DNA from: Streptomyces sp. V3I7
GTDB lineage: Bacteria; Actinomycetota; Actinomycetes; Streptomycetales; Streptomycetaceae
Reading direction: 5' to 3'
Assembly: GCF_030817495.1 (NCBI RefSeq)
Contig: NZ_JAUSZK010000001.1
Span: 3,451,001 to 3,515,000, forward strand
DNA length: 64,000 nt
In this document: positions 49,979 through 64,000 of the stretch, in pieces
How the letters are laid out: each line of letters begins with the position of its first letter
Position numbering within the stretch: position 1 is the stretch's first letter
Notes under the pieces: model-generated
What the model was told of the DNA's origin: nothing
The model's database searches: none
Seen by the model: only the letters and a program-made list of their open reading frames with translations
Made by a program: the position numbers and the translations under genes

Positions 49979-50054
49979 AGGTGCCTCCTACAGGAAAGGG
50001 ATCGGCCAGGAAGGTGTCGGTCGGCTTGTGATCGCAGCGGCTCCATAGGGGGTG

Positions 50055-50089
50055 CTCGTCGGTCAGGCGAGCCCGGCCTGACCGACGAG
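50055..50089 (-). terminator. Terminator of the DEAD-box helicase gene
   Basis: A 14-bp perfect stem (50055-50068 with 50076-50089) with a 7-nt loop, 8 bases past the helicase stop codon. Confidence 0.78.
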
Positions 50090-50096
50090 ACACCCG

Positions 50097-51602
50097 CTAG
50101 GCAGCCGAGTCGAAGCCGGGCCGCCGCTGTGACCTGCGGCGCGCCGCTTCGCCGACGGACCGGCCCTGGCCGGCGGGGCCCCGGCGACCCCGACGTCCCT
50201 GGGACGGAGAGGACGCGCCGCGGGGACGTTCCATCGCCGGCGAGGTGATGACGACCGGGACACCGGAAGGGGCCTGGGCCCCGGTGATGCGGCTCAGCTC
50301 CGCCTCGCCCGAACGCACCTGGGCGACCTGGGGAGTGACGCCTGCCGAAGCCATCAGGCGGCTCATACCGCGACGCTGGCCAGGGGTCACCAGGGTGACG
50401 ACGCTGCCGGACTCGCCGGCGCGGGCCGTACGACCGCTGCGGTGCAGGTAGTCCTTGTGGTCGCTGGGCGGATCCACATTGACGACCAGGTCGAGGTTGT
50501 CGACGTGGATCCCGCGCGCCGCGACGTTGGTCGCCACCAGTACCGTCACATGCCCGCTCTTGAACTGGGCCAGGGTCCGCGTCCGCTGTGGCTGGGACTT
50601 GCCACCGTGCAGGGCCGCGGCGCGGACGCCGTTGCTCAGCAGGTGCTCGGTCAGCCGGTCCACCGCGTGCTTGGTGTCGAGGAACATGATCACCCGGCCG
50701 TCTCGCGCCGCGATCTCGGTGGTCGTCCGGTGCTTGTCCGCGTCGTGCACATGGAGGACGTGGTGCTCCATCGTGGTGACCGCGCCGGCCGACGGGTCGA
50801 CGGAGTGGACCACCGGGTCCGTCAGGTAGCGGCGGACCAGCAGGTCGACGTTGCGGTCCAGGGTGGCCGAGAAGAGCATCCGCTGCCCGTCGGGACGTAC
50901 CTGGTCGAGCAGGGCGGTGACCTGGGGCATGAAGCCCATGTCGGCCATCTGGTCGGCCTCGTCGAGGACCGTGATGGCGACATCGTCCAGCCGGCAGTCG
51001 CCCCGGTCGATGAGGTCCTTGAGCCGCCCGGGCGTCGCTACGACCACCTCGGCCCCGGCGCGCAGCGCACCGGCCTGCCTGCCGATGGACATCCCGCCGA
51101 CGACGGCGGCCAGCCGCAGGCTCACGGAGCGGGCGTACGGAGTGAGTGCGTCGGTGACCTGCTGGGCGAGCTCGCGGGTGGGGACGAGGATGAGGGCGAG
51201 CGGCTGCCGCGGCTCGGCGCGCTGCCCCGCCGTCCGGGCCAGTACGGCGAGGCCGAAGGCGAGGGTCTTGCCCGAGCCGGTGCGGCCACGACCGAGTACG
51301 TCACGACCGGCCAGAGAGTTCGGCAGGGTCGCCGCCTGGATCGGGAACGGTACGGTCACGCCCTCGCGGCCGAGCGTGGCCAACAGCCGCGCGGGCATGG
51401 CGAGATCGGCGAACGCCTCGACGACGGGCAGCGCGGGCGTGACCGTCTTCGGCAGGGCGAACTCGCCCTGTACGGCCCGTCCGGCCTGTCGATTTCCGTA
51501 TCCGTTGCCGTATCCCTTGGAACGGCGCGGCCCTCCTGAGCGGTTCGCGCCGGCGCTTCCTCCGAAGCGGTCATAGGTACGAGATGTGCGGGCACTATTC
51601 AT
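50097..51602 (-). CDS. DEAD-box RNA helicase (RhlE-like)
   Basis: 501 residues. An N-terminal Gly/Arg/Tyr-rich tail (about 1-45), then the helicase core: Q motif (VPFPIQAATLP), Walker A GRTGSGKT (106-113), PTREL, TPGR, DEAD, SAT, and HRSGRTARAG. The C-terminal tail is basic (GRRGRRGPAGQGR). ATP-dependent unwinding of RNA secondary structure, typical of cold adaptation. It lies downstream of a cold shock protein gene and upstream of two small cold-cluster genes. Cytosolic. Confidence 0.92.
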   Translation of the reverse strand: MNSARTSRTYDRFGGSAGANRSGGPRRSKGYGNGYGNRQAGRAVQGEFALPKTVTPALPVVEAFADLAMPARLLATLGREGVTVPFPIQAATLPNSLAGRDVLGRGRTGSGKTLAFGLAVLARTAGQRAEPRQPLALILVPTRELAQQVTDALTPYARSVSLRLAAVVGGMSIGRQAGALRAGAEVVVATPGRLKDLIDRGDCRLDDVAITVLDEADQMADMGFMPQVTALLDQVRPDGQRMLFSATLDRNVDLLVRRYLTDPVVHSVDPSAGAVTTMEHHVLHVHDADKHRTTTEIAARDGRVIMFLDTKHAVDRLTEHLLSNGVRAAALHGGKSQPQRTRTLAQFKSGHVTVLVATNVAARGIHVDNLDLVVNVDPPSDHKDYLHRSGRTARAGESGSVVTLVTPGQRRGMSRLMASAGVTPQVAQVRSGEAELSRITGAQAPSGVPVVITSPAMERPRGASSPSQGRRGRRGPAGQGRSVGEAARRRSQRRPGFDSAA

Positions 51603-51778
51603 GCGGAGCCTTCCTTGATGAGGCGCGTAGCAAGGAATTCCCGCAGCAGATGAGCGGCGCAGAGAATCTCGGGACGAGCCAAAGTCGATGCGGGCCGAGT
51701 CGGAACCGACGGGGAATGTGTCACCGGTCGGTGAGGAGGCGGAGCTCTCCGGTCACGTGCCCTGAAATGCAGCGAGCC

Positions 51779-51807
51779 GGGGCCCGCACCCCAGAGGTGC
51801 GGGCCCC
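51779..51807 (-). terminator. Terminator after the cold shock gene
   Basis: A 12-bp perfect stem (51779-51790 with 51796-51807) and a 5-nt loop CCAGA, 29 bases past the stop codon. Confidence 0.8.
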
Positions 51808-51836
51808 AGCTACGAAGTACGCGTCAGCGCTTTGCG

Positions 51837-52040
51837 TCAGGCGGGAACGATGTTCTCGGCCGTCGGGCCCTTCTGGCCCTGCGCGATGTCGAACGACACC
51901 TTCTGGCCTTCCAGCAGCTCGCGGAAGCCCTGGGTGGCGATGTTCGAGTAGTGGGCGAAGACGTCGGCGCCGCCGCCGTCCTGCTCGATGAAGCCGAAGC
52001 CCTTTTCCGCGTTGAACCACTTCACGGTGCCAGTAGCCAT
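51837..52040 (-). CDS. Cold shock protein (CspA family)
   Basis: 67 residues: [20 protein letters not shown] with RNP1 (KGFGFI) and RNP2 (DVFAHYSNI as VFAHY). An RNA chaperone that melts structures at low temperature. The ribosome binding site GAAGGGGA is six bases before the ATG. A 308-base upstream region, free of genes, may form the long regulated leader common in csp genes. It precedes the DEAD-box helicase in the same orientation. Confidence 0.95.
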
Positions 52041-52348
52041 TTCATTTCCCCTTCGGAGACGGTGTCAAGAATTCACCCTGTGTGAATCCCGTGTCGCCGT
52101 GATGATTACCCCGTCGGAAATGAATCTTCTGGCAACCACACCTGCAACTGAGATCGACAGTAGCACGGTGCGATCGGCTCCGCACGGTCGATAATTCTCT
52201 CCGGATGGCGGCCCAAGAAAGACTCGCCGGGCCCCGCACCTATTTCTCACTTCACGGGAACAGATATTGCTCTCCGTGGCTGTGGTTTTCCTGCCGCGCA
52301 CGTCCACCCACAGCCGCGTGACCTCCGCTGATCGTACGTACGGCCTCC
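52041..52348. other. Long leader / promoter region of the cold shock gene
   Basis: 308 bases without a gene and with noticeably lower GC content (about 52060-52320) than the neighbours. Includes A/T-containing inverted bits such as TTCACCCTGTGTGAA (52064-52078). Probably promoter and 5' leader of csp. Confidence 0.5.
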
Positions 52349-53833
52349 CTAGTTGGAGACGTGAGGGCTCGGCAGGGCGGCTCCGAAGTAGCCCTTGGTG
52401 TTGCGAACGGTGATTCCGGCGCTCTTGCCGCACAGGTTGACCGAACCGCTCAGGACTGGGCCAGAGGCGGAGCCGCGGGCGGTCCACAGGCAGCCGTCGC
52501 TGTTCTCGGTGGGTACGCCGACGACCGTCTCGGCCTTGCCGTCCTTGTTGAGGTCGGCGAGGTGGACGGCCGCGCCGAACTGGTCGCCGGCCTCTGCGGC
52601 ACCGGGTACGTCAGCCGTGTTCTGGGTGTACCCGACCGCCTTGGCTGTGGTCAGGCCGGAGGCGGAGCCGCGCAGCAAAACGGCTGTGCCTGCAAATTTG
52701 AGCGTGCCGACCGCCTCACCGGGAGAGCCGACGAGGACGTCGGCGTACCCGTCGGCGTTGACGTCGCCGACGCTGAGCGACTGTCCGAACTGGTCGCCGT
52801 CCTCAGCGGTTCCCGGGACTCCGGCCGTGGCCTGGTGGAAGACCTGTGGCTGCTGGTCGACGGTGATGCCCTGCGCGCTGCCGTAGAGGACCTGGATCTC
52901 GCCACCGCGGTGCGCCGCGCCGGTCGCATTCATAGTGGAATCGTCATCCGCGATACCAGTGACGAGGTCGCCGTAGCCGTCACCGTTGATGTCACCGATC
53001 TGGCCGGCGTGGCCGTCGGCGTAGGGAAGTTCGGTGGGCCAATTGGCCGACTCGTCGGCGCCCGGGGGACCGTTGTCGACGTACACAGATCCACGAAGGT
53101 CGTCGTCCGAGGGCCCCGGCAGCCAGAAGCGCTCCGCTCTGCCGTCGCCGTTCACGTCACCCATCACCACGCCACGGGTCCCGCCGAAGCGGTCATCCAG
53201 GTAGTGGGATGCGGCCTTGCCGATGCGGGTGAAGGGGCCGGTGTAGGAGGTGCCCTCGCAGCGCGAGCCGATGCTCACCTCCGGGGCGCCGTCCCCGTTC
53301 ATGTCACCTGTGGCCAGGGAGTTCCCGAAGCCGCAGTACGTGCGGCCGTCCCCGTATCCGGCCGGCGGAGAGATGGTCGCACCGCCCGTCAGCCCGCTGG
53401 GCCCACCCCATACGACGGTCACAGAGCCCCGGAGTTCCTTGTCGCCGACCTGCTCCCTCGGAGTGCCGACGAGTAGATCCGCGTACCCGTCCCGATCGAG
53501 ATCGGCGCTGGCGACCGTCGCGCCGAAGGCGTCCCATTCCTCGGGCTCTCCAGGGATCCCGGAGGTCGCCTGCGTGATGACCGTCCGGCGCGTGGTGCTC
53601 ACCGATGAGGCCGACCCGTACAGGACGACGACGGCGCCGGCTTCCTCCACGGTGCCGTTGGCGGCGTGGGGCGCGCCGACGACCAGGTCACGGTAGCCGT
53701 CACCGTTGAAGTCGTCCTGGACGGCTGCGGTGTTGGCCCCCTTGTAAGGACTGATGGCGGAAGCGGTCGTCGGGGTGAGGGCAACGGCGAGAAGGGGGGC
53801 GAGCACGGCGGCGGCCGTGGCTGCTCTGCGCAA
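52349..53833 (-). CDS. Secreted FG-GAP repeat protein
   Basis: 494 residues, starting at TTG (53833) with AAGGAG six bases upstream. Signal peptide about 1-26 (ending ASA). Seven integrin-alpha-type blades with DFNGDGYRD, DLDRDGYAD, DMNGDGAPE, DVNGDGRAE, DINGDGYGD, DVNADGYAD and DLNKDGKAE calcium loops and FG motifs. Homologous over its length to the protein encoded at 45002-46456, for example in ADLDRDGYAD followed by REQVGD and VTVVWGG. The two genes point towards each other. Confidence 0.87.
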   Translation of the reverse strand: MRRAATAAAVLAPLLAVALTPTTASAISPYKGANTAAVQDDFNGDGYRDLVVGAPHAANGTVEEAGAVVVLYGSASSVSTTRRTVITQATSGIPGEPEEWDAFGATVASADLDRDGYADLLVGTPREQVGDKELRGSVTVVWGGPSGLTGGATISPPAGYGDGRTYCGFGNSLATGDMNGDGAPEVSIGSRCEGTSYTGPFTRIGKAASHYLDDRFGGTRGVVMGDVNGDGRAERFWLPGPSDDDLRGSVYVDNGPPGADESANWPTELPYADGHAGQIGDINGDGYGDLVTGIADDDSTMNATGAAHRGGEIQVLYGSAQGITVDQQPQVFHQATAGVPGTAEDGDQFGQSLSVGDVNADGYADVLVGSPGEAVGTLKFAGTAVLLRGSASGLTTAKAVGYTQNTADVPGAAEAGDQFGAAVHLADLNKDGKAETVVGVPTENSDGCLWTARGSASGPVLSGSVNLCGKSAGITVRNTKGYFGAALPSPHVSN

Positions 53834-54048
53834 CGGGACTCCTTGACGGAAGGACGGGGACTGCAGGGACAGCGGAACGACCAGAGCGACAGCACGTGAA
53901 GCTCAGTCGCCCCACTGGACACACGAGAAGCCCTCATGGTTGTGCGGGATCCCCCATCTCGCGACGTCCTAGCTGCGATCGTCGTGAGGTCGCCGACGGG
54001 ATCGATGAGATGGTGCGCGCTCAGCATGCGAAGCACAGACGACAAATG

Positions 54049-54074
54049 AGGCCCAGGTCAGCTGACCTGGGCCT
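54049..54074 (-). terminator. Terminator palindrome beside the left att copy
   Basis: AGGCCCAGGTCAG followed by its exact reverse complement (13-bp arms). It matches, with changes, the terminator beside the intact tRNA-Gly at 61331-61357. It is probably the original terminator of that tRNA. Confidence 0.75.
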
Positions 54075-54081
54075 GAAATAC

Positions 54082-54126
54082 GGAGCGGGTGACGAGAATC
54101 GAACTCGCGCTCTCAGCTTGGGAAGC
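54082..54126 (-). repeat. Left attachment site: 3' half of tRNA-Gly (att copy)
   Basis: 45 bases identical to 61364-61408, comprising the T arm, variable region and anticodon-loop 3' side of tRNA-Gly(CCC). The rest of the tRNA is missing here. This is the classic footprint of a tyrosine-recombinase element that integrated into the 3' end of a tRNA gene. Confidence 0.85.
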
Positions 54127-54410
54127 GATGGCGTTTGCTCGCTGAACAGCACGCTGACCTGCGGTAACACGGAACCAGAGTTCCATGGTCAGGCCGGGAG
54201 CGCACCTTTGGTGACCGCTGTTGTCCGCCCTGAAGGGCACGGATGGGGCACGCGATTGAAGCGAGGGCCGTGCGGGCGCCTTCAGCGCGACGTCGACTTC
54301 CGTTCCCGGGACGGGAGTCGAGCGACAGCTTGGGGCTTTACCTGGGCGACGTGTCAGGTATCCACAAGCCGGGAGCCCCTGGCAGGGGATCTTGATGGTG
54401 GAGAGATGTC

Positions 54411-54803
54411 TCAGGCGGGCATGTCGACGGTCAGTCCGGCTGCTTGGGCGGCATCGGCCAGTCGTTTGTCATACGTGACGAACGAGGTGAGCTGGGAGCG
54501 GATACGGAGAGCCGTTGCCAGGTGGATGGCGTCCAGACTCCGTACGGTCGCCGGTTTCACGGTCTGGGCCAAGATACGAATGCCGGCGTCCAGCTCCACC
54601 AACTCGATCAGGTCGAGGACCGGGTGGAGCCGGGCGACGGCTTCCGGGGCGTAGCGTGCCAGGGCCCGCGATGACTCGATCTCCACCAGAACCGAACTCG
54701 TCCAGCCAGTCTCCGCCCGTTCGTCGAGCCAGTCGCGCAATGCCTGCGACTCGGACTCGGCGTGGACGAGTTTCACGACGGCGGCCGAGTCGAGGTAGAT
54801 CAT
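54411..54803 (-). CDS. vapC: PIN-domain toxin of VapC type
   Basis: 130 residues. The PIN ribonuclease acid residues are in place: Asp5 (MIYLDSAAVVKL), Glu41 (VLVEIESSRAL), Asp91 (SLDAIHLATAL) and Asp112 (YDKRL). It cleaves RNA when released from its antitoxin. Its ATG overlaps the antitoxin stop (TGATG), so both are made together. It sits at the left end of the tRNA-Gly island. Confidence 0.9.
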   Translation of the reverse strand: MIYLDSAAVVKLVHAESESQALRDWLDERAETGWTSSVLVEIESSRALARYAPEAVARLHPVLDLIELVELDAGIRILAQTVKPATVRSLDAIHLATALRIRSQLTSFVTYDKRLADAAQAAGLTVDMPA

Positions 54804-55036
54804 CAGCGCTCGTCCTCGCGGCTGTGGGCGATCTCCGCGGCGATGTCGAGGCCGTCCGGTTCGCCGAGCGGCATACGCAGGACGGCGCGACGCATCGCGG
54901 CAGCCCGCTCTTTGCGGAGGGCGGCTTCGAGCACGGCTTGTCGGATGGCCGCCGAGCGTGAGCTGCCGTCATGGGTGAGAACGTCCAGAGCGTGCTCGGT
55001 CTCCGAGTCACTGCGGATCGTGATGGTGTCAGCCAT
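54803..55036 (-). CDS. vapB: Ribbon-helix-helix antitoxin of VapB type
   Basis: 77 residues. MADTITIRSDSETEHALDVL then SRSAAIRQAVLEAAL fits a ribbon-helix-helix DNA-binding N-terminus. The C-terminal half (MPLGEPDGLDIAAEIAHSREDER) is the usual disordered toxin-binding region. It is the first gene of the pair with vapC. A palindrome directly upstream (55044-55066) is the likely autoregulatory operator. Confidence 0.86.
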   Translation of the reverse strand: MADTITIRSDSETEHALDVLTHDGSSRSAAIRQAVLEAALRKERAAAMRRAVLRMPLGEPDGLDIAAEIAHSREDER

Positions 55037-55043
55037 GCAACCA

Positions 55044-55066
55044 ATGTAAGACGATGCGTCTTACAT
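55044..55066. promoter_or_regulatory. Palindromic operator of vapBC
   Basis: ATGTAAGACG and CGTCTTACAT are perfect 10-bp arms around ATG, starting 8 bases upstream of the vapB start. Position and symmetry suit RHH antitoxin binding. Confidence 0.75.
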
Positions 55067-55440
55067 GGCAAGCCCCTGCTTGCCGTCCCCTTCGCAGGTG
55101 CGGTAGAGGACGTTGGCGTCGTAGATGGCGACGAAAGCCATGTGCTGGACCATTCCCATTTCCTGGCCGAGCTGGGTGAGCTCGTCGGCGGCTTCGCGGC
55201 GACGCTGGTCGTCCTTGCGCTTGTACTCCAGGAGTGAGGACGCGGTGATCCGCCGGTGTGTGCCGACGGTTTGCCGGACCCCAGGTGGGCCAGCATGCCG
55301 GCGAGCAGTTCCACGGCCTCGCGGGGGAGGGCGAGGGGCTCGCGCTTTCCGTCCCCGACCGTCACGGTGATCTCTGCGAGGCCGTGGGGTGCCGCCAGGT
55401 AACTGCGGACCAGTGCGAGCGAAACAATCGAAGTAAACGC
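55067..55440 (-). pseudogene. Decayed HTH antitoxin fused to the start of a PIN toxin
   Basis: Two frames carry parts of one protein family: ITVTVGDGKREPLALPREAV then LLAGMLAHLGSGKP (about 55262-55386), and, in another frame, VGTHRRITASSLLEYKRKDD with QRRREAADELTQLGQEMG (about 55140-55262). Intact members have an HTH of about 35 residues between these two parts; it has been deleted, and the junction at about 55262 is out of frame. The second part runs directly into MAFVAIYDANVLY, the N-terminus of a PIN toxin, which ends after a further 13 codons. So a whole toxin-antitoxin pair is broken here. Confidence 0.72.
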
Positions 55441-55520
55441 AACAAATGAAACAAGGTGATGGTTCGGGAGGCTGTCGAGCCCGCGGCACTCCGAACGCGC
55501 AGGGGCTGACTCTGACCGGT

Positions 55521-55575
55521 CGCTCCCGAGCCGGGAGAATAGCTGGTCATGCGCACACTTTCGGGCTCGGGAGCG
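55521..55575. repeat. 12-bp inverted repeat upstream of DUF5994 gene
   Basis: CGCTCCCGAGCC (55521-55532) and GGCTCGGGAGCG (55564-55575) are perfect inverted arms with a 31-base loop. Possibly a terminator or an operator in the DUF5994 promoter region. Confidence 0.5.
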
Positions 55576-55687
55576 GAGTAGTGTGAAGACACCGGGAGTT
55601 CTTCGCACGCCGGTTCCCCTGTGGTGTCGTTCCCGGTGATCGACAACGCCGGGCTGTCGCAGACGAGCCCGGGGGCAGGTCCGCGCC

Positions 55688-56290
55688 ATGACCATCGACC
55701 GTACGACTACGAGTGAGCGCGCGCCCTCGCCGCCGGTTCGCCTGTCCCTGACGCCGGTGAGCCCGGTTCCAGGCCTGTTGGACGGCGCGTGGTGGCCTCG
55801 CTCCCGCGACCTCACCCGTGAGCTGCCGCCTCTGACAGCCGTACTGGACCCCCTCTGGGGTCGGATCACTCATGTCACGGTGAACCCCGCCCACTGGCCC
55901 GTCATCCCGCACAAGGTGCCCGTCGCCGGGCACACGGTGCACGTGGGATGGTTCACCGACGAGCAGGATCCGCACGAACTGCTTCTCCTCTCCTACACCG
56001 TCGGCCGCTGGGACCTTCTGGTGATTCCGCCGGAAACCGCTGCGGCTGCCGCCGCCCGGCTGATGGCTGCCGCGGCCATGGCGGGCGGTCTTCGTACCGC
56101 CAGCCAGCTGATGGCGGACGAGGTCGCGACCGGCGACGGCATCGACGCCGGAGGCCGGGAAGCAGTAGACGGTGTCGCTGCCCGGAGCCGGGAAGAGGCG
56201 TGGGAGACCGATGGCGGGGCAGCTCCGACGTCGCCTGTGCCTCGGCACACCGGCTCGCCAGGGCGTATGCCCTCCGGCCAAGGGATGTGA
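55688..56290 (+). CDS. DUF5994 family protein
   Basis: 200 residues. Contains LDGAWWPRSRDLTRELPPL, GRITHVTVNPAHWPVIPHKV, HVGWFTDEQDPHELLLLSY and RWDLLVIPPETAAAAAARLM, the full DUF5994 pattern. Members are common in Streptomyces in stress-linked clusters; function unknown. The C-terminal 60 residues are low complexity and vary. The next gene follows after 7 bases. Confidence 0.85.
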   Translation: MTIDRTTTSERAPSPPVRLSLTPVSPVPGLLDGAWWPRSRDLTRELPPLTAVLDPLWGRITHVTVNPAHWPVIPHKVPVAGHTVHVGWFTDEQDPHELLLLSYTVGRWDLLVIPPETAAAAAARLMAAAAMAGGLRTASQLMADEVATGDGIDAGGREAVDGVAARSREEAWETDGGAAPTSPVPRHTGSPGRMPSGQGM

Positions 56291-56297
56291 GAGTGCC

Positions 56298-56507
56298 ATG
56301 ACCGTCATCGCGGTGGCTGTGTTGCTGGTCGTGATCGTCGTCGGAGTCGTTCTCATCCACCGGCTCAACGTTCAGCACAGCGAACGGATCGCTGCCTTCC
56401 ACTACAGCAATGTCCTGCCGGGGATCGGCCGCCGGATCCGGAGGCGCCGCCGGTCCGCGGCGGACGGGACCGTCGAGGCGCCTCACCACGACAGAGACCG
56501 CGGATGA
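56298..56507 (+). CDS. Small single-pass membrane protein
   Basis: 69 residues from the ATG at 56298 (MTVIAVAVLLVVIVVGVVLI). One membrane segment (about 3-22), then a basic cluster (RRIRRRRR) and a hydrophilic tail. It starts 7 bases after the DUF5994 stop, so it is probably co-transcribed. Function unknown. Confidence 0.6.
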   Translation: MTVIAVAVLLVVIVVGVVLIHRLNVQHSERIAAFHYSNVLPGIGRRIRRRRRSAADGTVEAPHHDRDRG

Positions 56508-56658
56508 CATCGAGGAAGAGCGTGGCTGAGTCGGCCGCCGCGCATCGGCCTCCCGGACCGAAGTGAGCCTTCGCAAGGATTGCGCATGTCGGATTAATCC
56601 CTTTGGCGTAATGTGGAAAGCGGGTCGGCGCACGCTCACGTGCAATGACCCGGAAGGG

Positions 56659-56686
56659 CGGCTCCGGCGCGTATACGCCGGAGCCG
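56659..56686. terminator. Bidirectional terminator hairpin
   Basis: An 11-bp perfect stem (56659-56669 with 56676-56686), loop CGTATA, between the converging small membrane protein gene and HTTM gene. Confidence 0.75.
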
Positions 56687-56802
56687 TTGCCTGTCTCCGG
56701 ACCCCTGCGGTGAAGCGCTCGCGCGAGCGTCACCCAATGAGCTCACGTCACCCAGCTTCGGGCGGAATCCCGGCCGCCGTGCAGCGCTATGAAGTGTCGT
56801 CC

Positions 56803-57951
56803 TCAGCCGACCCGTCCGGACTGCGGAGGCAGCAGTGCAGCTTCTGCGGGCGTCGGAGTCCGCGCCTCTGTGACGTCTGCCCGCCGTGCGGTACGCCGGC
56901 ACAGCTGTCCCAGGCGCCGGTAGAAGCGGTCCGGGAGGAACACGGCGTCCGCGACGATCATCGCGCCGGAGAAGAGCGGCAGGCCCAGGAGCACCGCGAT
57001 CCCCACGTGCATGCCCAACAACGTCGCCAGAACGGGGTACTTGAGCCTGCCGAACAGGACGAACGGGAAGGCCACCTGCAACAGCACCGTCAGGTAGCAG
57101 GCGATGGCGATCAGTACGTCGTGTTCGTCCACCATGAGGGAGAGTCCGGGCCACGGCCGGAACACGTCGAGGTTCAGGGCGTAGTGGAGGGCGGTGCCGT
57201 TTCCCCAGGAGCCGCCCTGCACCTTGTACAGGCCTGCTGATCCGTAGAGGAAGCAGACCTGGGCGGCGATGACGAGCATGCCGCAGTTGTGCAGCACGGT
57301 GATCACTGTCTGGCGCGCGTCGCGCAGATGGAGTCGGAACTCGCCGGATGGCTGGTCCAGCCGGTGCCCGGCAGTCGTGTCGGCGGATGCCCGGATCCGG
57401 GTCCTGCGCGCGTCGAGGGACCAGCGTCGGCCGCATGCGGTGAACACGAGGTAGAGGGCCATGAGGAGGATGAGGTTGTCCCCTCCGTCCGTCATGAAGA
57501 TCGCCCTGGCGTGGAACGACGTCACCACGACCGCGAACAGCACGGACACGGCCCTGGTCCGCCAGCCCAGCAGGAACAGTGCGGAGGTGACGAGGGCTGC
57601 CGTGTAGCAGACCTCGAAGTAGGCCCGGCTGTCGGACAGGGTGAGGACGCTGAGCCACCCGGTCTGGTCGAAGAGCTGCCTGGCCAGTGCCGCCGTCCAC
57701 GGTGAGCCGGGGCCCCAGATCTCGTCGCGGTGGGGAAACTCGCGCAGCAGGAAGGCGAAGTAGAGGAATCCGTACCCGATACGCAGAACCGCCGCGGCGT
57801 ACAGGGAGATCGGCTGCTCCAGCAGGAGGGTGAGAAGCGCGCCGATACGGTCCGGCATTCGCTGCGGCGTGCGTGCGCCCGCGCGCTCGGGGCCGTGTCC
57901 CGGGCGTGACGGCATGGTTGCCGCGACCGATGCCTGCTCAGCCTGCTGCAT
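56803..57951 (-). CDS. HTTM domain membrane protein (SdpB / gamma-carboxylase-like)
   Basis: 382 residues. Membrane segments at about 48-70, 105-125, 132-150, 155-172, 220-245, 275-300 and 310-345. The HTTM pattern is visible: LYAAAVLRIGYGFLYFAFLL, LFLLGWRTRAVSVLFAVVVTSFHARAIFMTDGGDNLI and QVCFLYGSAGLYKVQGGSWGNGTALHYAL. This family includes the membrane part of vitamin K-dependent carboxylases and SdpB of Bacillus. The start overlaps the end of the DUF5819 gene by 14 bases, so the two are made as a pair. Confidence 0.85.
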   Translation of the reverse strand: MQQAEQASVAATMPSRPGHGPERAGARTPQRMPDRIGALLTLLLEQPISLYAAAVLRIGYGFLYFAFLLREFPHRDEIWGPGSPWTAALARQLFDQTGWLSVLTLSDSRAYFEVCYTAALVTSALFLLGWRTRAVSVLFAVVVTSFHARAIFMTDGGDNLILLMALYLVFTACGRRWSLDARRTRIRASADTTAGHRLDQPSGEFRLHLRDARQTVITVLHNCGMLVIAAQVCFLYGSAGLYKVQGGSWGNGTALHYALNLDVFRPWPGLSLMVDEHDVLIAIACYLTVLLQVAFPFVLFGRLKYPVLATLLGMHVGIAVLLGLPLFSGAMIVADAVFLPDRFYRRLGQLCRRTARRADVTEARTPTPAEAALLPPQSGRVG

Positions 57952-58708
57952 GAGGGGCCACCTTCCACCAGGGCAGGTAACGGGTGCCGGCGGGTTTCGG
58001 TGCGGCCGCGCCGGGACGGGGGCCGCCCGCTGTGGCGGGCGCGGCGATGGGCAGGCTGATCACCCGCAGCTGGATGAAGTCGAACGTGCCGTGGCGATGG
58101 GCGGCGACGCGATCCGCCGCGATGTTGCGCAGGTATTGCTGGATCATCCGAGCGCGCTGCGAGCGCGGTTGGTCGTCACCGCCGTGCGTTTCGAGGTAGG
58201 AAGTCCAGGCCCGGCGCAGCATGTTCTGTGCTGTATGGCTCGGGAAGGGGTTGTGTTTCACCGCGGCTGTGTCGACGGCGGTCAGGTCGAACCAGCCGCT
58301 CACCTGGGCGGTGCCGTCGGGGGCGGTGCGCATGGTCCTTGCCGAAATCTGCCGGTTGACCGACTCCGGGTCCGGGGCGAAGAGCCGCCAGTTCTGTTCG
58401 AACAACGGGAAGACCCAGGCGTTGACCTGTCGGCTGTACTGCCGGGAGACGGGATTCGGTGGTGCCACGTGCAGGAATACCAGGAGTACGTGTACCAGGG
58501 CAGTCGCCAGACACAGGATCACGGCGATTCGCACTCCGGCCTTCAGAGCGACGGGCGGATCTGAAGGCGCTGGGGACGCGGGCGGCCTCCCGCCCCTTTT
58601 CTGCGCGGTTGACCCAGTGCCGGCCGCCTGGTCCGAGCAGTCGGCATCCGCTGATGGAACGCCACTGTGCACGGCCCCGTCCGGCCTTTCCGTCCCGACT
58701 TCTCTCAC
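57938..58708 (-). CDS. DUF5819 family protein (HTTM partner)
   Basis: 256 residues from a GTG with AGGAG in good distance. After a hydrophilic N-terminal region (about 1-55) there is one membrane segment (about 58-82) and then the DUF5819 domain: NAWVFPLFEQNWRLFAPDP, VSGWFDLTAVD and YLRNIAADRVAAHRH. DUF5819 genes stand beside HTTM genes in many actinobacteria, comparable to SdpA next to SdpB. No toxin peptide like SdpC is recognised here. Second gene of the set, after the ice-binding-like gene. Confidence 0.82.
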   Translation of the reverse strand: MREVGTERPDGAVHSGVPSADADCSDQAAGTGSTAQKRGGRPPASPAPSDPPVALKAGVRIAVILCLATALVHVLLVFLHVAPPNPVSRQYSRQVNAWVFPLFEQNWRLFAPDPESVNRQISARTMRTAPDGTAQVSGWFDLTAVDTAAVKHNPFPSHTAQNMLRRAWTSYLETHGGDDQPRSQRARMIQQYLRNIAADRVAAHRHGTFDFIQLRVISLPIAAPATAGGPRPGAAAPKPAGTRYLPWWKVAPHAAG

Positions 58709-58733
58709 CTGGTTCTCCTGAGGTTCTGCCGGG

Positions 58734-58776
58734 CGGCGTGCGGCGGAATCGGTGACGATCCGCGCCGCACGCCGCT
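58734..58776 (-). terminator. Terminator of the ice-binding-like gene
   Basis: A 13-bp perfect stem (58734-58746 with 58764-58776), 65 bases past the stop codon on the minus strand. It may partly separate this gene from the DUF5819/HTTM pair. Confidence 0.7.
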
Positions 58777-58841
58777 CGTCCTACTCGCCCACGGGGGTGG
58801 CTGTCTCCGAGGACTCACCCCGGCGGAGTGGGCCCTGCATG

Positions 58842-60053
58842 CTAGGCGGCGTCACAGCCGTAGTCGTCGCCCTTGCCGGGCTTGTCGCCATACCCGTAGG
58901 AGCAGTCGTTGCCGTATCCACCGGTGGTGCCGGTGGTGGTGCTGCCCGTGCTGCCGGTGGTGGTGGCGCCGGTGCTGCCGGTGGTGCCGGTGGTGGTGCT
59001 GCCAGTGCTGCCGGTGGTGGTGGCGCCGGTGCTGCCGGTGGTGCCGGTGGTGGTGCTGCCAGTGCTGCCGGTGGTGCCGGTGGTGGTGCTGCCAGTGCTG
59101 CCGGTGGTGCCGGTGGTGGTGCTGCCAGTGCTGCCGGTGGTGCCGGTGGTGGTGGCGCCGGTGCTGCCGGTGGTGGTGGCGCCAGTGCTGCCGGTCGTTG
59201 TGGTGCCCGTGGTTCCGGTGGTGGTGGCGCCGGTGCTGCCAGTGCTGCCGGTGGTGCCGGTGGTCGTGGTGCCCGTGGTGCCGGTCGTCGTGGTCCCACC
59301 GGTGGTGCCGCCCGCGCACTCCGGCCGGGTGATCGTGTTCGTGTCCAGCGTCACGGCACCGTTACGGGCCAGCGCCCGACCTTCGATCGTCGCGCCCGTC
59401 GTGGCGGTGATCGAGGTCATGGCCAGGATGTTGCCCACGAAGGTCGAGCTGGTGCCGAGGGTGGCCGAACTGCCGATCTGCCAGAAGACATTGCACGGCG
59501 AGGCGCCGTTGATGAGGCGCACCTCGCTGAAGGACGCCGTCGTCAGACCCGAACCGACCTGGAACACCCAGACGGCGTTGGGGTTCGTCTGGGCGTCCAG
59601 GGTGAGGGTGCCGGTGAGCCCGAGAGTGGAGGAGGAGGTGTAGACGCCCGGAACCAGCGTCAGGCCGCCGGCGTCCGGGGGAAGGGCCCCGTTGGAGGCC
59701 TGTCCGGCGGCGTCGTCGTACGCCGCGACCAGGTCGGTCTGGGCGTCCTGGGCCTCACTGTCCGCAGAGTGCAGAGTCCCGTTGACCACGGCGGGCGGCC
59801 CGTATCCGGTGATGGACGATCCCGGAGACACTCCGACGTCTCCGGTGATCACCGAGGGGCCGGTGTTGGTGGTGGCCGAACCGGCCAGCACCGCGAAGCT
59901 GTCCGCCCTACCCAGAGGTACAGGTGTGGCGAGGGCATTTGCCTGTGTCTGCGTCACAGTGACTACGACAGCGGCGATCACCACGGCGAGTAGCGCCGCG
60001 ATCCAAACCGACAATGTGCGCCGTAGAGGCGCGACAGGGATATTCAGCGTCAT
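58842..60053 (-). CDS. DUF3494 ice-binding-like secreted protein with Thr/Ser/Gly repeat tail
   Basis: 403 residues. A signal or anchor segment (about 15-40), then the DUF3494 domain (about 45-245): [58 protein letters not shown] and [20 protein letters not shown]. This fold is the beta-solenoid of ice-binding proteins and adhesins. Residues about 250-375 are a Thr/Gly/Ser repeat ([10 protein letters not shown] units). The end is a Gly/Tyr/Asp-rich piece with two Cys ([19 protein letters not shown]). It lies in the tRNA-Gly island, near the cold shock cluster. Confidence 0.86.
58920..59305. repeat. Tandem repeat coding for Thr/Ser/Gly units
   Basis: About 385 bases of GTGCCGGTGGTGGT/GCTGCC units, mostly in 9-, 15- and 30-bp multiples, inside the ice-binding-like gene. 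Slippage-prone and likely to vary in length between strains. Confidence 0.9.
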
Positions 60054-60534
60054 GGAGGGGCCAGTCCTGTGAGGGGATGGTCGCGTTTGGCGGTTCCCGG
60101 TCGCATGGAATCGCCTGCTTCTGTCGCTGGCATATTACTCAGGAGAATGGGCCGGGGTTACGATGCATTCGAGTGATTTCTTCGAACCCGACAAGGAGAT
60201 CGCGGATGCACGGAAAATGATTAATGGGCCGAGTGGCCGTGTCAGTTTGGTTCAGATGGGCGACACGACGACGTTTCCGCCCAGGTCAGCGCAGGTGTCA
60301 ATCGGATTGGTGCATTCGTAGTCGGCCGTACCCGAGCGGAACATGCGGAAGCAGCATGGAATTCAGGGTGGTGCGCTCTCACGTGTAACCGCCCGGGTAA
60401 CGGTGACCCCGGCGTGTACGCGTAGGGGTCCTAGCGCCGACCGTCGGCGTCACGGCGCGAGGGAAATGCGGGAATACCCGCCCGGTCCGTGAACGGCGCA
60501 CCGAGCGGCACCCCGTTCGGCAGGGAGAGAGAGC
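60054..60534. other. Intergenic region with low GC and doubtful mini-ORFs
   Basis: 481 bases. Lower GC than the surroundings at 60120-60360. Contains a 52-codon plus-strand ORF (60163-60321, MHSSDFFEPDKEIADARKMI start) and a 30-codon minus-strand ORF (60252-60344, MFRSGTADYECTNPIDTCAD start) that overlap each other. Neither is convincing alone. Confidence 0.4.
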
Positions 60535-60900
60535 ATGATTCAGGCAGCCGACATCCGCGAGTGGCGCAACCACGACGTCGTCGACCCGAAGGGTCACAAG
60601 ACCGGTGTGCTCGAGGCGATCTACGTGGACACCACCACCGACCAACCGGCATGGCCACCGTCCGGACCGGCCTGCCCACCCGCCGGCACCTGGTCTTCGT
60701 CCCCCTCGACGAGACAATCCTCGGGCCCGCCTACGTCAAGGTCTCCTACGACAAGGCACTGGTGAGGAAGTCCCCTCCGATCGGCACGGACGACGTACTG
60801 CCCGCCGAGCAGGAAGAAATGATCTTCCACTACGGCATTGCCTGCCAGCCAGGCGCCGCCGGCGAACGGCAACTCGCGCGCCGGAACGTTCAGTCCGCAA
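60535..60900 (+). pseudogene. PRC-barrel domain protein, frameshifted
   Basis: The first frame from the ATG at 60535 (GAGAGAGAGC upstream) gives MIQAADIREWRNHDVVDPKG then VLEAIYVDTTTDQPA, a PRC-barrel start. From 60651 the protein continues in another frame: MATVRTGLPTRRHLVFVPLD, ILGPAYVKVSYDKALV, PPIGTDDVLPAEQEEMIFHY. One base is missing at about 60652. The second frame ends its family similarity at ERQLARR (about 60885) and then runs on without a stop. Related genes are common in Streptomyces stress clusters. Confidence 0.75.
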
Positions 60901-61330
60901 TCCGGGACTTCCTGCGTCGTAAGTTCCGGCTTCAACCGTTGAACGTGCCGCAACCTGCCTCTTTGCCCTTTGTCGGTTGCGCCGGTGCTGGAGTGTCGCC
61001 TGCGAGTGCCGCCCGCGGTGAGACTCGCCCTTACTGGCGGATGAGTGCGACTGAAACGAGAGCGTTGCCAACTCCTCTCGTCACTTGCGGCCGATGCTTC
61101 ATGGTGAGGATGGCGCTTGCCTGGTCTGGCGAACTAGCGCTTTGCGTATGCGACTTCACTCGCGAGGGCACTGGAAGTGGTGCGGGTCACAGGAAATGCG
61201 TCTCGCTATTCGAGGTGATTGGCTGACGCGTCGTCGGGAAGTGCACCTCCGGTGCCCTCTGATGGGCACATTCGTGCGACTTGGGGCACGTGGAGGGCGC
61301 GAAGCCCCCGAAATGGTCTAGACAACAAAT
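60901..61330. other. Right part of the island, no recognisable gene
   Basis: About 430 bases between the broken PRC-barrel gene and the tRNA terminator. Low-GC stretches and no recognisable frame; an integrase would be expected near here or at the left end but none is seen. Confidence 0.45.
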
Positions 61331-61357
61331 AAGCCCCAGGTCACTGACCTGGGGCTT
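61331..61357 (-). terminator. Terminator of tRNA-Gly
   Basis: A 13-bp perfect stem (61331-61343 with 61345-61357) following the tRNA on the minus strand. Diverged copy of the palindrome at 54049-54074. Confidence 0.8.
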
Positions 61358-61362
61358 CATCG

Positions 61363-61436
61363 TGGAGCGGGTGACGAGAATCGAACTCGCGCTCTCAGCT
61401 TGGGAAGCTGATGTTCTACCATTAAACTACACCCGC
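61363..61436 (-). tRNA. tRNA-Gly (anticodon CCC)
   Basis: 74 bases including an encoded CCA. The acceptor stem GCGGGTG pairs with CACCCGC, discriminator T. The anticodon stem-loop is TCAGC-TTCCCAA-GCTGA with anticodon CCC, and the T arm has GAGTTCGATTCTC. Its 3' 45 bases serve as the attachment site of the adjoining island; the intact gene is restored on this side. Confidence 0.95.
61364..61408 (-). repeat. Right attachment site (att copy inside tRNA-Gly)
   Basis: Exact 45-bp counterpart of 54082-54126, lying in the 3' half of the intact tRNA. Confidence 0.85.
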
Positions 61437-61706
61437 GTAAGACGCCGACCGGAGTCGGTGCCGAAATGCTCGCTCACTGTACCTCATCCTGGGTCCCCGG
61501 CGTCGATGCCGTGGGGCCTGAGTGCGCTTCAGGGGTGGATCGCGCTGCGGGGTGCGGGAGTTGGGGCGTACGGTGGGGGTGTGGGAGAGAGGCCGGGCAG
61601 GGCCGGAGTGCCGCCTGGAGAGTCGTCTCTTTGATCCCGTAACGTGGCTTTTGTCGTCAGGGCAGTTGGCCAGACGAGGCTCTTGGGGAAGGGACTCTGG
61701 GACTTG

Positions 61707-61865
61707 ATGGAACGCACCGTCGTCCGTTGTGCCGAAGGGCACGTGTTCAGCACCGCTTCGTTCCCGATGCAGAAGGCCGAGCGGCTCGGCCCCGGCCGGC
61801 TCGTCCGGTGTCCGCGGTGTGCCCGGCTCCGCAGTGCGGTGCCCGTCGCCGTCGAGAAGCGGTAG
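61707..61865 (+). CDS. Small zinc-ribbon-like protein
   Basis: 52 residues: MERTVVRCAEGHVFSTASFP, ending RCPRCARLRSAVPVAVEKR. Cys8 and His12 together with the CPRC pair give a possible zinc site. Small proteins of this type are conserved next to dcd in Streptomyces as far as I recall. A longer start upstream (61626) exists but does not look like coding sequence. Confidence 0.65.
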   Translation: MERTVVRCAEGHVFSTASFPMQKAERLGPGRLVRCPRCARLRSAVPVAVEKR

Positions 61866-62062
61866 GGGCGGCAGCGGGCAGCAGGGCGCAGGCCCTTGCG
61901 GGAAGGCCCGCAGCGGTAGTGGCAGCAGGGTCGTAGTAGGTAGTACGCCGTAGGCCGTAGACCGGTCTCGGCGGTAGGGCCGAGGCAGGCCCAAGGCAGC
62001 GAAGAGGCGCGCGGAGTCGTCACGATTGTCATGGCTCCGCGCGCCTTGCGTATCCTCGGGGC

Positions 62063-62638
62063 GTGCTTCTCTCAGACAAGGACATCCGGGCCGAGATCGA
62101 CGCCGGCCGGGTACGGATCGACCCCTACGACGAATCCATGGTGCAGCCGTCGAGCATCGACGTCCGGCTGGACCGCTACTTCCGGGTGTTCGAGAATCAC
62201 CGGTACCCCCACATCGACCCCTCCGTCGAGCAGACCGACCTGACCCGGCTCGTCGAGCCGGAGGGCGACGAGCCGTTCATCCTGCACCCCGGTGAGTTCG
62301 TGCTGGCCTCGACGTACGAGGTCATCACGCTGCCGGACGACCTCGCCTCGCGCCTGGAGGGCAAGAGCTCACTCGGGCGGCTGGGGCTCGTGACCCACTC
62401 CACCGCCGGGTTCATCGACCCCGGCTTCTCCGGGCACGTCACGCTGGAGCTCTCCAACCTCGCCACCCTGCCGATCAAGCTGTGGCCCGGCATGAAGATC
62501 GGGCAGCTGTGCATGTTCCGGCTCTCCTCGCCGACCGAGCACCCGTACGGCAGCGAGCGGTACGGATCGCGGTACCAGGGACAGCGCGGGCCGACCGCCT
62601 CCCGTTCCTACCTCAACTTCCACAGGACCCAGGTGTGA
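62063..62638 (+). CDS. dcd: dCTP deaminase
   Basis: 191 residues. [62 protein letters not shown] and [15 protein letters not shown] are the conserved dCTP deaminase / dUTPase-superfamily blocks. It converts dCTP to dUTP (or directly to dUMP in bifunctional members) on the way to dTMP. Trimer in the cytosol. The last base of its GTG-TGA end overlaps the start of the phosphoribosyltransferase gene. Confidence 0.96.
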
Positions 62639-63159
62639 GCAGCGTGACGGAGACGACGAGCATGGCGGACATACGCGAGAACCTCACCTACGAGCGGTTC
62701 GGCACCGCCGTGCGCGAGCTGGCCCAGACCATCGCCGACGACGGCTACGAGCCCGACGTCGTGCTCTCCATCGCCCGCGGTGGCGTCTTCGTGGCGGGCG
62801 GCCTCGCCTACGCGCTCGACTGCAAGAACATCCACCTGGTGAACGTCGAGTTCTACACCGGCGTCGGCACCACGCTCGAGATGCCGGTCATGCTCGCGCC
62901 GGTCCCCAACCTGATCGACTTCTCCGACAAGAAGGTCCTGATCACCGACGACGTCGCCGACACCGGCAAGACGCTCAAGCTGGTGCGCGACTTCTGCCTC
63001 GACACCGTCGCCGAGGTGCGCTCCGCCGTGGTCTACGAGAAGTCCCACTCCCTCGTGAAGTGCGAGTACGTGTGGAAGCGGACCGACGACTGGATCAACT
63101 TCCCGTGGAGCGTCGAACCGCCGGTGGTCAAGCGGGCCGGGCAGGTTCTGGACGCGTAG
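62635..63159 (+). CDS. Phosphoribosyltransferase
   Basis: 174 residues with the first GTG, which overlaps the dcd stop (GTGA); later starts at 62644 (GTG) and 62662 ([17 protein letters not shown]) are possible. The PRPP loop [18 protein letters not shown] and [18 protein letters not shown] are clear. The type resembles xanthine/hypoxanthine-guanine salvage enzymes; the base specificity is not certain. Coupled with dcd in one operon, it fits nucleotide salvage. Confidence 0.87.
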
Positions 63160-63166
63160 CGGAGGG

Positions 63167-64000
63167 CTACGAGTACACGACCGGCAGCTGAAATCCCTTC
63201 GTGCCGGGGCCGGCGATGCCGGGCCCCGGTGCGCCATGCTCCTTCACCGAGACGGACACCTGGTACTTCTCGCCGTGGTCCAGGGGCTTGCCGACCTTGA
63301 ATTCCCTCCACTGCTGCCCGGTGCCGGGGGTGGGTGAGGCTGTCACGTTGAGCGCCGCCATGCCGTTCTGGACCGACGCGCCCGGGTAGACGACGGTCGT
63401 GCCCGTGGCGTCCTCCAGCCACACATAGACGTCGACCATGGCCGAGCCCGACGTCGTGCGCCACTCGGCGATCATGTACAGCGCGCCGTCGTCGCCGATC
63501 CGCATGCACGGCTTGACCTGGACTCGGCTGAACCCTGCGTCGTGCCACGACGTACAGGACGTCGCCGGGTTGCGCAGGGGCCCGGACGGAGACGTGGACG
63601 GTGTCGTCGCCGCCGGAGCAGGCTGCTCACCGCGTGGTGCCGTCGGCGCCGGGCTCGGAGAGGCCTTGCTGGTCGGCTTGGCGGTGGTGCTCGGTGTCGG
63701 GGAGGGCGACAAGGAGCCCTGCGTCTTCGCGTCGCTCGCGGGCGCCGCGTCCGCCGCTGTGTGCCGTTCCCACAGGTCGGCTCCTGCGACCGCGCCGAGT
63801 GCCAGGATCGTTGCTCCGGCCAGCGACCAGGCGATGCCCGACCTGAGTGAGCGGCGCGGTGCGTAGTGGTGGTGCTCGTTGATCGTCTGGTCGCGGCCGG
63901 TCTGGTACGCCCGTGCCTGCTCCGTCGGGGTCGCGGAGAAGGACTGCCTGGAGGGCTCGGAGGCCGGGGCGGGCTTGGCGGTCTTGGCGGGCCGGTCCGG
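63167..64000 (-). CDS. Membrane-anchored extracytoplasmic protein (partial)
   Basis: At least 277 residues; the N-terminus lies beyond the right edge. The visible part has a cytosolic stretch with the YQTGRDQTINEHHHY segment, one membrane segment (SGIAWSLAGATILALGAVAGA), a Ser/Pro/Thr-rich linker and a C-terminal beta domain (CMRIGDDGALYMIAEWRTTS, VSVSVKEHGAPGPGI). A TTG at 63712 is inside the protein and not its start. Function unknown. Convergent with the phosphoribosyltransferase gene. Confidence 0.72.
   Translation of the reverse strand, partial: PDRPAKTAKPAPASEPSRQSFSATPTEQARAYQTGRDQTINEHHHYAPRRSLRSGIAWSLAGATILALGAVAGADLWERHTAADAAPASDAKTQGSLSPSPTPSTTAKPTSKASPSPAPTAPRGEQPAPAATTPSTSPSGPLRNPATSCTSWHDAGFSRVQVKPCMRIGDDGALYMIAEWRTTSGSAMVDVYVWLEDATGTTVVYPGASVQNGMAALNVTASPTPGTGQQWREFKVGKPLDHGEKYQVSVSVKEHGAPGPGIAGPGTKGFQLPVVYS

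Follow-up and report, generated by a model that had tools for sequence, protein, structure and literature searches.

We found that the segment at 54082-61408 of the window (the whole 64-kb stretch of DNA analysed here) is very probably an integrase-less, att-bounded CIME remnant of an AICE-type element in the anticodon loop of tRNA-Gly(CCC). This is the sole tRNA of the window, placed by ARAGORN at 61363-61436 on the minus strand (Rfam tRNA, 71.5 bits), and a 45-bp exact repeat joins it to the far end of the segment. The tRNA-proximal copy of this att core (61364-61408, minus strand) and the distal copy (54082-54126, minus strand) are identical at 45/45 positions, for a chance expectation of roughly 6e-16 in 64 kb, which confirms the original prediction that the 3′ half of the tRNA recurs exactly. 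The repeat spans tRNA positions 29-73, starting in the anticodon loop and reaching almost to the 3′ end. Of the tRNA, the 5′ portion is chromosomal, and the last element would have brought the 3′ portion as its att core. When the distal copy was used as a query against the whole genome, four rows were returned: both core copies, the terminator matching itself as a palindrome, and a weak 81% match at 3243943. An Rfam scan of 52000-64000 gave, besides the tRNA, a single miRNA match that fell below threshold. The G+C content dips to 0.60-0.63 near both borders of the segment, and likewise at 52000 and 60000, with no clear step.

A strong hairpin adjoins each core copy on the minus strand, at 54049-54081 (-23.2 kcal/mol) beside the distal copy and at 61331-61363 (-22.9 kcal/mol) beside the tRNA, and the two differ in sequence, each copy having its own diverged terminator. 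The original prediction further held that the left terminator is chromosomal and the right one was brought by the element. In Streptomyces sp. CB01635, the tRNA-side terminator has the stem GGCCCAGGTC, which is that of the window's left terminator and not of the right one. Over 50 bp, the CB01635 terminator matches the window's left terminator in 42/52 columns and the right one in 38/50, a small difference, and the S. antnestii terminator matches them in 41/52 and 40/51 columns. The CB01635 terminator is flanked by an arm-like GGTGCG...GCTGCG, as in elements at this site, and the window's left flank retains one GGTGCG; for this reason, the left terminator, which would pre-date the last integration, is probably not the ancestral one. 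The right hairpin would, as predicted, derive from the element, and the left one probably does not go back to the original chromosome.

To the left, the chromosomal anchor (50097-52332, delimited by homology in relatives) consists of a DEAD helicase gene (50097-51602) and a cold-shock gene (51837-52040), and left-side homology ends at 52167-52332 in 20/20 relatives. To the right lies dcd, encoding dCTP deaminase (62063-62638, plus strand, PF22769), a region matched in 199/199 genomes of the genus, with scoring limited to the top one or two candidate stretches of each genome, as in all our genome DNA searches. An FG-GAP repeat protein gene (52349-53833, minus strand, PF01839) lies outside the repeats. 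As the original prediction had anticipated for relatives without the island, CB01635 (locus L155) carries the FG-GAP gene (92.7% nucleotide identity), about 1.15 kb of non-island DNA, an intact tRNA-Gly and dcd, and the joined flanks of the window align across this site. In S. antnestii (L157), roughly 4.6 kb of different DNA separates the FG-GAP gene from one full tRNA-Gly. At the near-empty site of a wider relative (G162), there is just one tRNA copy, and the cold-shock gene is about 0.4 kb away from it. These sites agree with the footprint of an integration into the tRNA 3′ end. Both CB01635 and S. antnestii have a partial or truncated core copy beyond the FG-GAP gene (14 mismatches in S. 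antnestii), and since the gene sits between two tRNA copies in CB01635, it would belong to an older layer of insertions. The complete island was found in none of the relatives, so any order of losses and gains is tentative.

Element ends at this tRNA-Gly share a common architecture, in which the core is followed about 110 bp on by a GGCACG...GGCACG pair. In the window, this candidate integrase arm-type pair (P′ arm) lies at 54236-54252 on the plus strand, 110 bp after the distal core, and a candidate P-arm pair (GGCACG...GGCGCG) lies on the tRNA side at 61285-61301 on the plus strand. The P′ pair was present after 32/37 partial copies, at a spacing of 108-113 bp in 31 of the 37 and at 58 bp in the 32nd, vs 0/37 intact tRNAs and 31/3420 random windows; on later loci, some of them in genomes whose opposite flank of the site had been sampled before, the counts were 23/31 partial copies vs 0/39 intact tRNAs. 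It was thus absent from 5/37 and 8/31 partial copies. A P-type pair precedes 20/37 tRNA copies and is absent from the other 17, and it precedes 5/37 partial copies and occurs in 63/6840 random 85-bp windows. Before these counts, two duplicates (L078 and L082), a stretch with no tRNA (L092) and a 101-base stretch (L093) were left out. Since the window keeps the 45/45 core, the P′ pair and the tRNA-side pair, its attL and attR look complete; they would be functional sites, and the AICE integrase presumably uses the arm-like pairs.

Lying between the DEAD-helicase/cold-shock locus and dcd, this tRNA-Gly site is an AICE hotspot across the genus. One relative (L146) has a complete AICE at the same site, with GntR, an FtsK-type TraB, DUF2637, RepSA (861 bits), Xis and Int. 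Among the matches listed, an integrase of the site clade (58% identity or more, over 318 or more of 395 residues, on the same contig as dcd or the tRNA) lies downstream of the tRNA and within 45 kb of it in 38/38 genomes, and 11/11 comparable rows at 42-49% integrase identity sit more than 0.5 Mb away; as a point against, a fragment of the clade (152 aa, 74%) lies about 5 Mb from dcd in G104. The integrase clade is tied to the tRNA-Gly site. An AICE and integrase remnants were seen in relatives between the same kind of ends, and they connect the window segment to integrative elements of this site, from one of which it would descend directly. Nor is the window segment an exception: 24 of 47 att-bounded tRNA-proximal segments, the window included, had no match to the site integrase, in a non-random sample whose first 20 relatives were those most window-like at tRNA-dcd and whose others were picked by the length of their contigs.

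About 7.2-7.3 kb lie between the repeats, and the predicted toxin-antitoxin genes, decayed genes and ice-binding-like protein were all found there. Next to the distal att are a VapC-like PIN-domain toxin gene (54411-54803, minus strand; PF01850, E 1.3e-12) and a VapB-like RHH antitoxin gene (54803-55036, minus strand), which overlap at 54803 as in a type II VapBC pair, the small partner having a weak RHH match below the cut-off (PF01402, E 0.04). They are followed by a decayed gene (55099-55496, minus strand), from which two stretches, each about 120 bp long and present in G022, G122 and G079, are missing; in these three genomes its homologues sit about 250 bp from tRNA copies. Then come a DUF5994 protein gene (55688-56290, plus strand; PF19457, E 1.3e-39) and a cargo trio on the minus strand, consisting of an HTTM-domain membrane protein (56803-57951, PF05090), a DUF5819 protein (57938-58708; PF19136, E 6.3e-55) and an ice-binding-like protein with Thr/Gly-rich repeats (58842-60053; PF11999, E 1.3e-65, 221 bits). 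A broken gene at 60535-60883 (plus strand), which we take to be PRC-barrel-like, has a frame break near 60650 according to tblastn of its two parts, the first of which has no Pfam match. Gene decay inside the segment is real, as indicated by this frame break and the two missing stretches in 55099-55496.

The predicted absence of an integrase and of its remnants was upheld, as a PF00589 search of the whole genome gave eight matches, none inside the window, and tblastn with two integrases from the tRNA-Gly site of relatives against 52001-61500 gave a best E of 0.05. The segment ORFs scanned against Pfam, through which serine recombinases were covered, had no match to a replication initiator (RepSA), an FtsK-type TraB or other transfer families, and AICE descent is therefore argued from the att ends and the site. 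Of the features that define an AICE, the segment has the att core in a tRNA 3′ end, with neither a tyrosine integrase in the window nor RepSA and TraB among the scanned ORFs. This freedom from integration and transfer genes (by PF00589, the site integrases and the scanned ORFs) is that of a CIME.

The vapBC module recurs at tRNA-Gly copies in two other genomes. In G183, two att copies spaced 1.26 kb enclose this module and nothing else (98.5% amino acid identity for the toxin and 97.4% for the antitoxin), and in G347 it neighbours the tRNA-side P arm at a distance of about 70 bp. Its 88% identity to the G183 module equals the dcd identity between the two genomes, so nothing indicates recent transfer. 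A mosaic breakpoint follows the module at 55097/55099, and the stretch from 55098 to 61280 (6.2 kb), instead of being AICE cargo, could have been inserted into an att-vapBC-att unit that was by then reduced. Six of 74 segments were shorter than 1.5 kb, five of them holding only a toxin-antitoxin-like pair and one a secreted LPMO; two of the five (L044 and L046) represent one cassette that two genomes share, and in the AbiEii and Phd/YefM pairs one partner matches Pfam and the other was judged by position. Among the 89 ORFs within 2 kb downstream of 54 partial copies, AbiEii, PIN and PhdYefM occurred twice each, and they are absent from the 25 commonest families of a control (52 stretches with 74 distinct ORFs, 72 of them aligned after one with an invalid start coordinate and one long reading frame were set aside). 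As a list of 25 families may hide single toxin-antitoxin members in either set, our claim is confined to the six short segments and does not extend to a general enrichment of toxin-antitoxin genes.

These observations are consistent with the following course for a CIME remnant. An AICE tyrosine integrase would have joined the tRNA 5′ part to the element's own 3′ part and terminator at the right end, and the old 3′ part and terminator would have been displaced to the left end. The xis, int, rep and tra genes would then have been lost and other genes would have entered, and the interior would therefore be a mosaic, with both att ends keeping the core and the arm-like pair. Because both att ends keep a core and an arm-like pair, an incoming AICE with a tRNA-Gly integrase could excise the segment or carry it after landing in tandem, so that the segment is perhaps still mobilizable in cis or in trans. 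The vapBC genes, presumably active as a toxin-antitoxin pair, may make loss costly from their place beside the distal att, and the remnant may persist for this reason.

Several elements may have made the present borders: the left copy would stem from an older one, and deletions between att copies would have fused accreted elements into the present interior; we give this somewhat less than an even chance. It is suggested by a relative with up to five partial core copies in one stretch (L044), by the FG-GAP gene between two copies in CB01635 and by the mosaic breakpoint at 55097/55099, although a search of 50001-62000 of the window that allowed up to 16 mismatches gave no further copy, so the window itself offers no direct trace of such a history. 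Accretion is largely compatible with a CIME remnant, and its likelihood is not exclusive of the latter. It is rather unlikely that the segment arose as a non-autonomous att-flanked cassette (core, arm, vapBC, arm, core) moved in trans by an AICE integrase and later loaded. The lone vapBC of G183, the module near the P arm in G347 and the five small segments with only a toxin-antitoxin-like pair fit such a cassette, but decay of an AICE down to its addiction module gives the same picture, the right end in G183 has no clear P arm, G347 has no distal core (up to 16 mismatches) within 18 kb, the six small segments include the one with LPMO and the repeated cassette, and a circular form or transfer was not seen. 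We also consider it rather unlikely that the site hosts a family of miniature att-toxin-antitoxin-att cassettes that borrow the AICE integrase and form tandem arrays, the window holding a cargo-loaded one. Such a family may be likened to integron cassettes or to MITEs for AICEs, the integron being an analogy only. A leftover of a tandem tRNA-Gly duplication around ordinary chromosomal genes is highly improbable and fails against integration, since the 45/45 identity of the core would be expected of a recent duplication, but the distal copy, like those elsewhere, lacks the tRNA 5′ part and is followed at a fixed distance by the arm pair that most partial copies and no examined intact tRNA have, and CB01635 and G162 lack the segment.

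The CIME remnant resembles pSAM2-type AICEs in its tRNA 3′-end site and core repeat, and a relative at the site has the rep-xis-int order toward the tRNA, but none of traB, rep, xis and int was found in the window segment. Like other CIMEs, it keeps attL and attR with arm-like pairs and no recombination or transfer genes were found in it; here the host is Streptomyces, the site is tRNA-Gly(CCC), and mobilization would follow from the ends. The available text of PMC9513070 describes a single site that occurs empty, with an intact AICE, or with remnants that have direct repeats, as well as accretion at tRNA-Arg; its authors suggest that remnants may be mobilized in cis and that toxin-antitoxin genes are likely addiction systems. 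Compared with the decayed AICEs in that text, the present case differs in its site (tRNA-Gly beside dcd), its arm-like pairs and the segments with only a toxin-antitoxin-like pair. The HipAB islands of Shewanella, as far as the available text of PMC8978831 goes, are alike in having a toxin-antitoxin module on a tRNA-integrated island; here the module is vapBC, with a stabilising role only proposed. Taken together, an integrase-less island can be recognised as a mobile-element remnant through its attachment ends, at a genus-wide hotspot with its own integrase clade. As about half of the examined att-bounded, tRNA-proximal segments have no match to the site integrase, integrase-based island finders would probably overlook them. 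Should the toxin-antitoxin pattern also emerge from an unbiased sample, addiction modules would often be the last surviving genes of a decaying AICE.

The HTTM, DUF5819 and ice-binding genes were contiguous in 17/17 loci fetched for the trio. A PADLOC search of eight proteins (E up to 0.01) matched no family, and an SdpABC-like toxin system was rejected for the trio, as the HTTM protein falls below the cut-off of the SdpB family (TIGR04033, 52 bits) and the C-terminal tails vary, being mostly His-, Gly-, Lys- and Asp-rich in relatives. As a point against the remnant reading, the trio is oriented opposite to the att core in the window and in G083, and along it in G141, G189, G075, G004, G068 and G170.

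The tRNA-Gly(CCC) gene of the 6.55-Mb genome (G000), a Streptomyces judged by its top FG-GAP matches, lies on the minus strand near dcd (61363-61436). An exact second copy of its 3′ part, tRNA positions 29 to 73, is present at 54082-54126, as the original prediction had stated, and a hairpin terminator, a separate one in each case, was confirmed beside both copies. The 7.2 kb between the copies contain vapBC-like genes, a decayed gene, a DUF5994 gene, a gene for a small membrane protein, a trio of HTTM, DUF5819 and ice-binding-like genes, and a broken gene, which we take to be PRC-barrel-like. The claim that no integrase lies between the repeats also held: a PF00589 profile search of the whole genome gave 8 matches, none of them in the window, and a search with two integrases from the same site in relatives gave a best E-value of 0.05. 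For serine recombinases, the profile search covers the scanned ORFs of the segment. In G000, the closest relatives of the tRNA-Gly-site integrase are distant (best E-value 8.7e-30).

When partial copies (the tRNA-Gly 3′ part alone) were aligned, they shared an element-side sequence past the core, followed about 110 bp on by two GGCACG motifs spaced 11 bp apart. Of 37 partial copies, 32 are followed by this pair (at 108-113 bp in 31 cases and at 58 bp in one); none of 37 intact tRNAs is, and 31 of 3420 random windows contain it. Among 40 loci fetched later, 23 of 31 partial copies are followed by it at 105-116 bp, and none of 39 intact tRNAs has it in the next 170 bp. A similar pair on the opposite side, before the terminator, occurs at 20 tRNA copies and 5 partial copies, of 37 in each group, and in 63 of 6840 random 85-bp windows. 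From their position and repetition, that is, from motif evidence, we infer that the pairs are integrase arm sites. Since the window has both candidate pairs (54236-54252 and 61285-61301), the ends of its element look complete, though no integrase gene is left.

At the same site in a relative (locus L146), a 10.6-kb element bounded by a partial copy and the tRNA is a textbook AICE (actinomycete integrative and conjugative element), with genes for a GntR regulator, an FtsK-type TraB, a DUF2637 protein, RepSA (861 bits, above the cut-off), an excisionase and an integrase, the last ending next to the tRNA. This integrase clade is tied to the tRNA-Gly site. Among the matches listed, all 38 tabulated genomes (identity of at least 58% across 318 or more of 395 residues, on the same contig as dcd or the tRNA) have a match no more than 45 kb downstream of the tRNA; beyond these, ten genomes had no dcd among the matches listed and three have dcd on a different contig. 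Comparable integrases of 42-49% identity (11 of 11 among the matches listed) are separated from dcd by over 0.5 Mb. As a counter-example, a clade fragment in the relative G104 (152 aa, 74%) is about 5 Mb away. Forty tRNA-bearing stretches, one of them the window, contain 25 segments with the tRNA at one end and a partial copy at the other; 5 have an integrase match of 300 aa or more, 7 have pieces and 13 have none; a further 40 loci gave 22 such segments (8, 3 and 11, respectively). The loci examined are a non-random sample, and both sets together (47 segments) comprise 13 with a match of that length, 10 with pieces and 24 with none, the window among the 24, where the classes denote matches to the tRNA-Gly-site clade and one locus without a match (L041) has two other PF00589 genes.

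Comparison of the relatives suggests that an AICE integrase would integrate across the anticodon loop, so that the tRNA gains a new 3′ part and terminator, and that an att-bounded remnant would be left once int, xis, rep and tra had been lost. Williams reportedly treated anticodon-loop crossover in 2002 as one class of tRNA integration site, and the S. glaucescens element pIJ408 is said to be assigned to a tRNA-Gly. Among the matches listed in a literature search covering mainly open-access papers, we found no account of an AICE site at a Streptomyces tRNA-Gly and no arm description for this site. The remnant may be kept by vapBC, and an incoming tRNA-Gly AICE could land alongside it and then excise or carry it. 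PMC9513070 describes accretion, empty sites and decayed AICEs bordered by repeats in Streptomyces, and has remnants as possibly mobilized in cis and toxin-antitoxin systems as likely addiction systems; PMC5704250 defines CIMEs (att-bounded remnants without integration or transfer genes) and PMC3218068 reports the preference of AICEs for tRNA 3′ ends as well as tandem AICEs. Like the decayed AICEs in PMC9513070, the window's segment is bordered by repeats, and its site is island-free in a relative, Streptomyces sp. CB01635. Because decayed AICEs, CIMEs and accretion are already described, the segment belongs to a known type and is a further example of such remnants.

CB01635 (locus L155), which was found by an FG-GAP protein search, has the FG-GAP gene and an intact tRNA-Gly and lacks the island, as had been expected of some relatives. 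There, a partial tRNA copy precedes the FG-GAP gene (92.7% nucleotide identity); about 1.15 kb without a match to the island separate this gene from the intact tRNA-Gly, and dcd comes next. In S. antnestii (L157), the FG-GAP gene is followed by a different stretch of about 4.6 kb and then the tRNA, and a truncated tRNA copy (14 mismatches) lies past FG-GAP. The tRNA-side terminators of both relatives share the stem GGCCCAGGTC with the distal terminator of the window and not with its proximal terminator, which supports, at the sequence level, the predicted order of an old terminator on the left and a new one on the right. Over 50 bp the gap is small, with 42/52 columns matching the distal versus 38/50 the proximal terminator in CB01635, and 41/52 versus 40/51 in S. 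antnestii. The old terminator was probably itself inherited from an earlier element, since an arm-like GGTGCG...GCTGCG adjoins the tRNA-side terminator of CB01635, a single GGTGCG remains in the left flank of the window, and the FG-GAP gene of CB01635 has a tRNA copy on either side.

All 199 genus genomes gave a match to the tRNA-dcd region, and the left anchor of the hotspot is a DEAD helicase gene with a cold-shock gene. Homology ends at 52167-52332 in all 20 relatives fetched at this anchor. With relatives represented by one genome per species, the distance from the helicase match to dcd ranges among the matches listed from about 1.6 kb (G162, with a single tRNA copy about 0.4 kb after the cold-shock gene) to about 181 kb (G104), and is about 9 kb in the window; among the 20 relatives studied first, 14 have one to four further partial copies within about 18 kb. 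Several genes with FG-GAP repeats flank the tRNA-dcd locus on both sides, in G000 (52349-53833 in the window; 3496011 and 3517529-3520566 in the genome) and in other genomes. Conserved chromosome joins the FG-GAP region at 52327-52341. About 50 bp past the matching point, CB01635 has a partial tRNA copy; an outer att copy may therefore have been lost at this junction. In one relative (G004, loci L081 and L138), diverged tRNA copies flank the helicase match on both sides, and an HTTM piece lies in one place with the full trio further on.

The first kilobase past the distal core, including vapBC, shares 88% nucleotide identity with G183 and G347 (in G347 without the first 174 bases), the only two of 391 other genomes with a match to this end among the matches listed. 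In G183, the vapBC module stands alone with att copies 1259 bp apart on either side, and in G347 it is followed by about 70 bp, the P arm (a candidate arm-motif pair) and the tRNA. In the window, this vapBC-to-tRNA arrangement is broken at 55097, after which come 6.2 kb of other DNA. In G022, G079 and G122, homologues of the decayed gene beside vapBC are found at a distance of about 250 bp from a tRNA copy. Six of 74 segments are shorter than 1.5 kb; one holds a single LPMO gene and five a toxin-antitoxin-like pair alone, namely VapBC in G183, AbiEii with a partner (one cassette, present in both G057 and G082), Phd/YefM plus a partner in G057, and a second VapBC type in G190. No att segments with toxin-antitoxin genes only were found among the literature matches listed. 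The half copies of tRNA-Gly that bound the short segments are spaced 1.25-1.5 kb apart, in loci L044 (5288-8112), L229 (15733-16992) and, in reversed orientation, L046 (2866-4218) and L268 (6316-9020).

The trio (56803-60053) is a fixed unit, its genes being adjacent on the same strand in all 17 loci that were fetched for the trio, and we found no paper naming two of HTTM, DUF5819 and the ice-binding-like protein together in a literature search. The HTTM homologue is in the hotspot in at least 7 of 36 relatives with a homologue of at least 477 bits (G068, G141, G189, G075, G083, G170 and G004), and several others are on unplaceable contigs. Streptomyces sp. NBC_01431 has the best plasmid match, at 84%, on a plasmid of 737 kb. 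The HTTM protein has a distant likeness to SdpB, and within the ice-binding-like gene a tract of 9/15-bp repeats at 58921-59330 encodes Thr and Gly.
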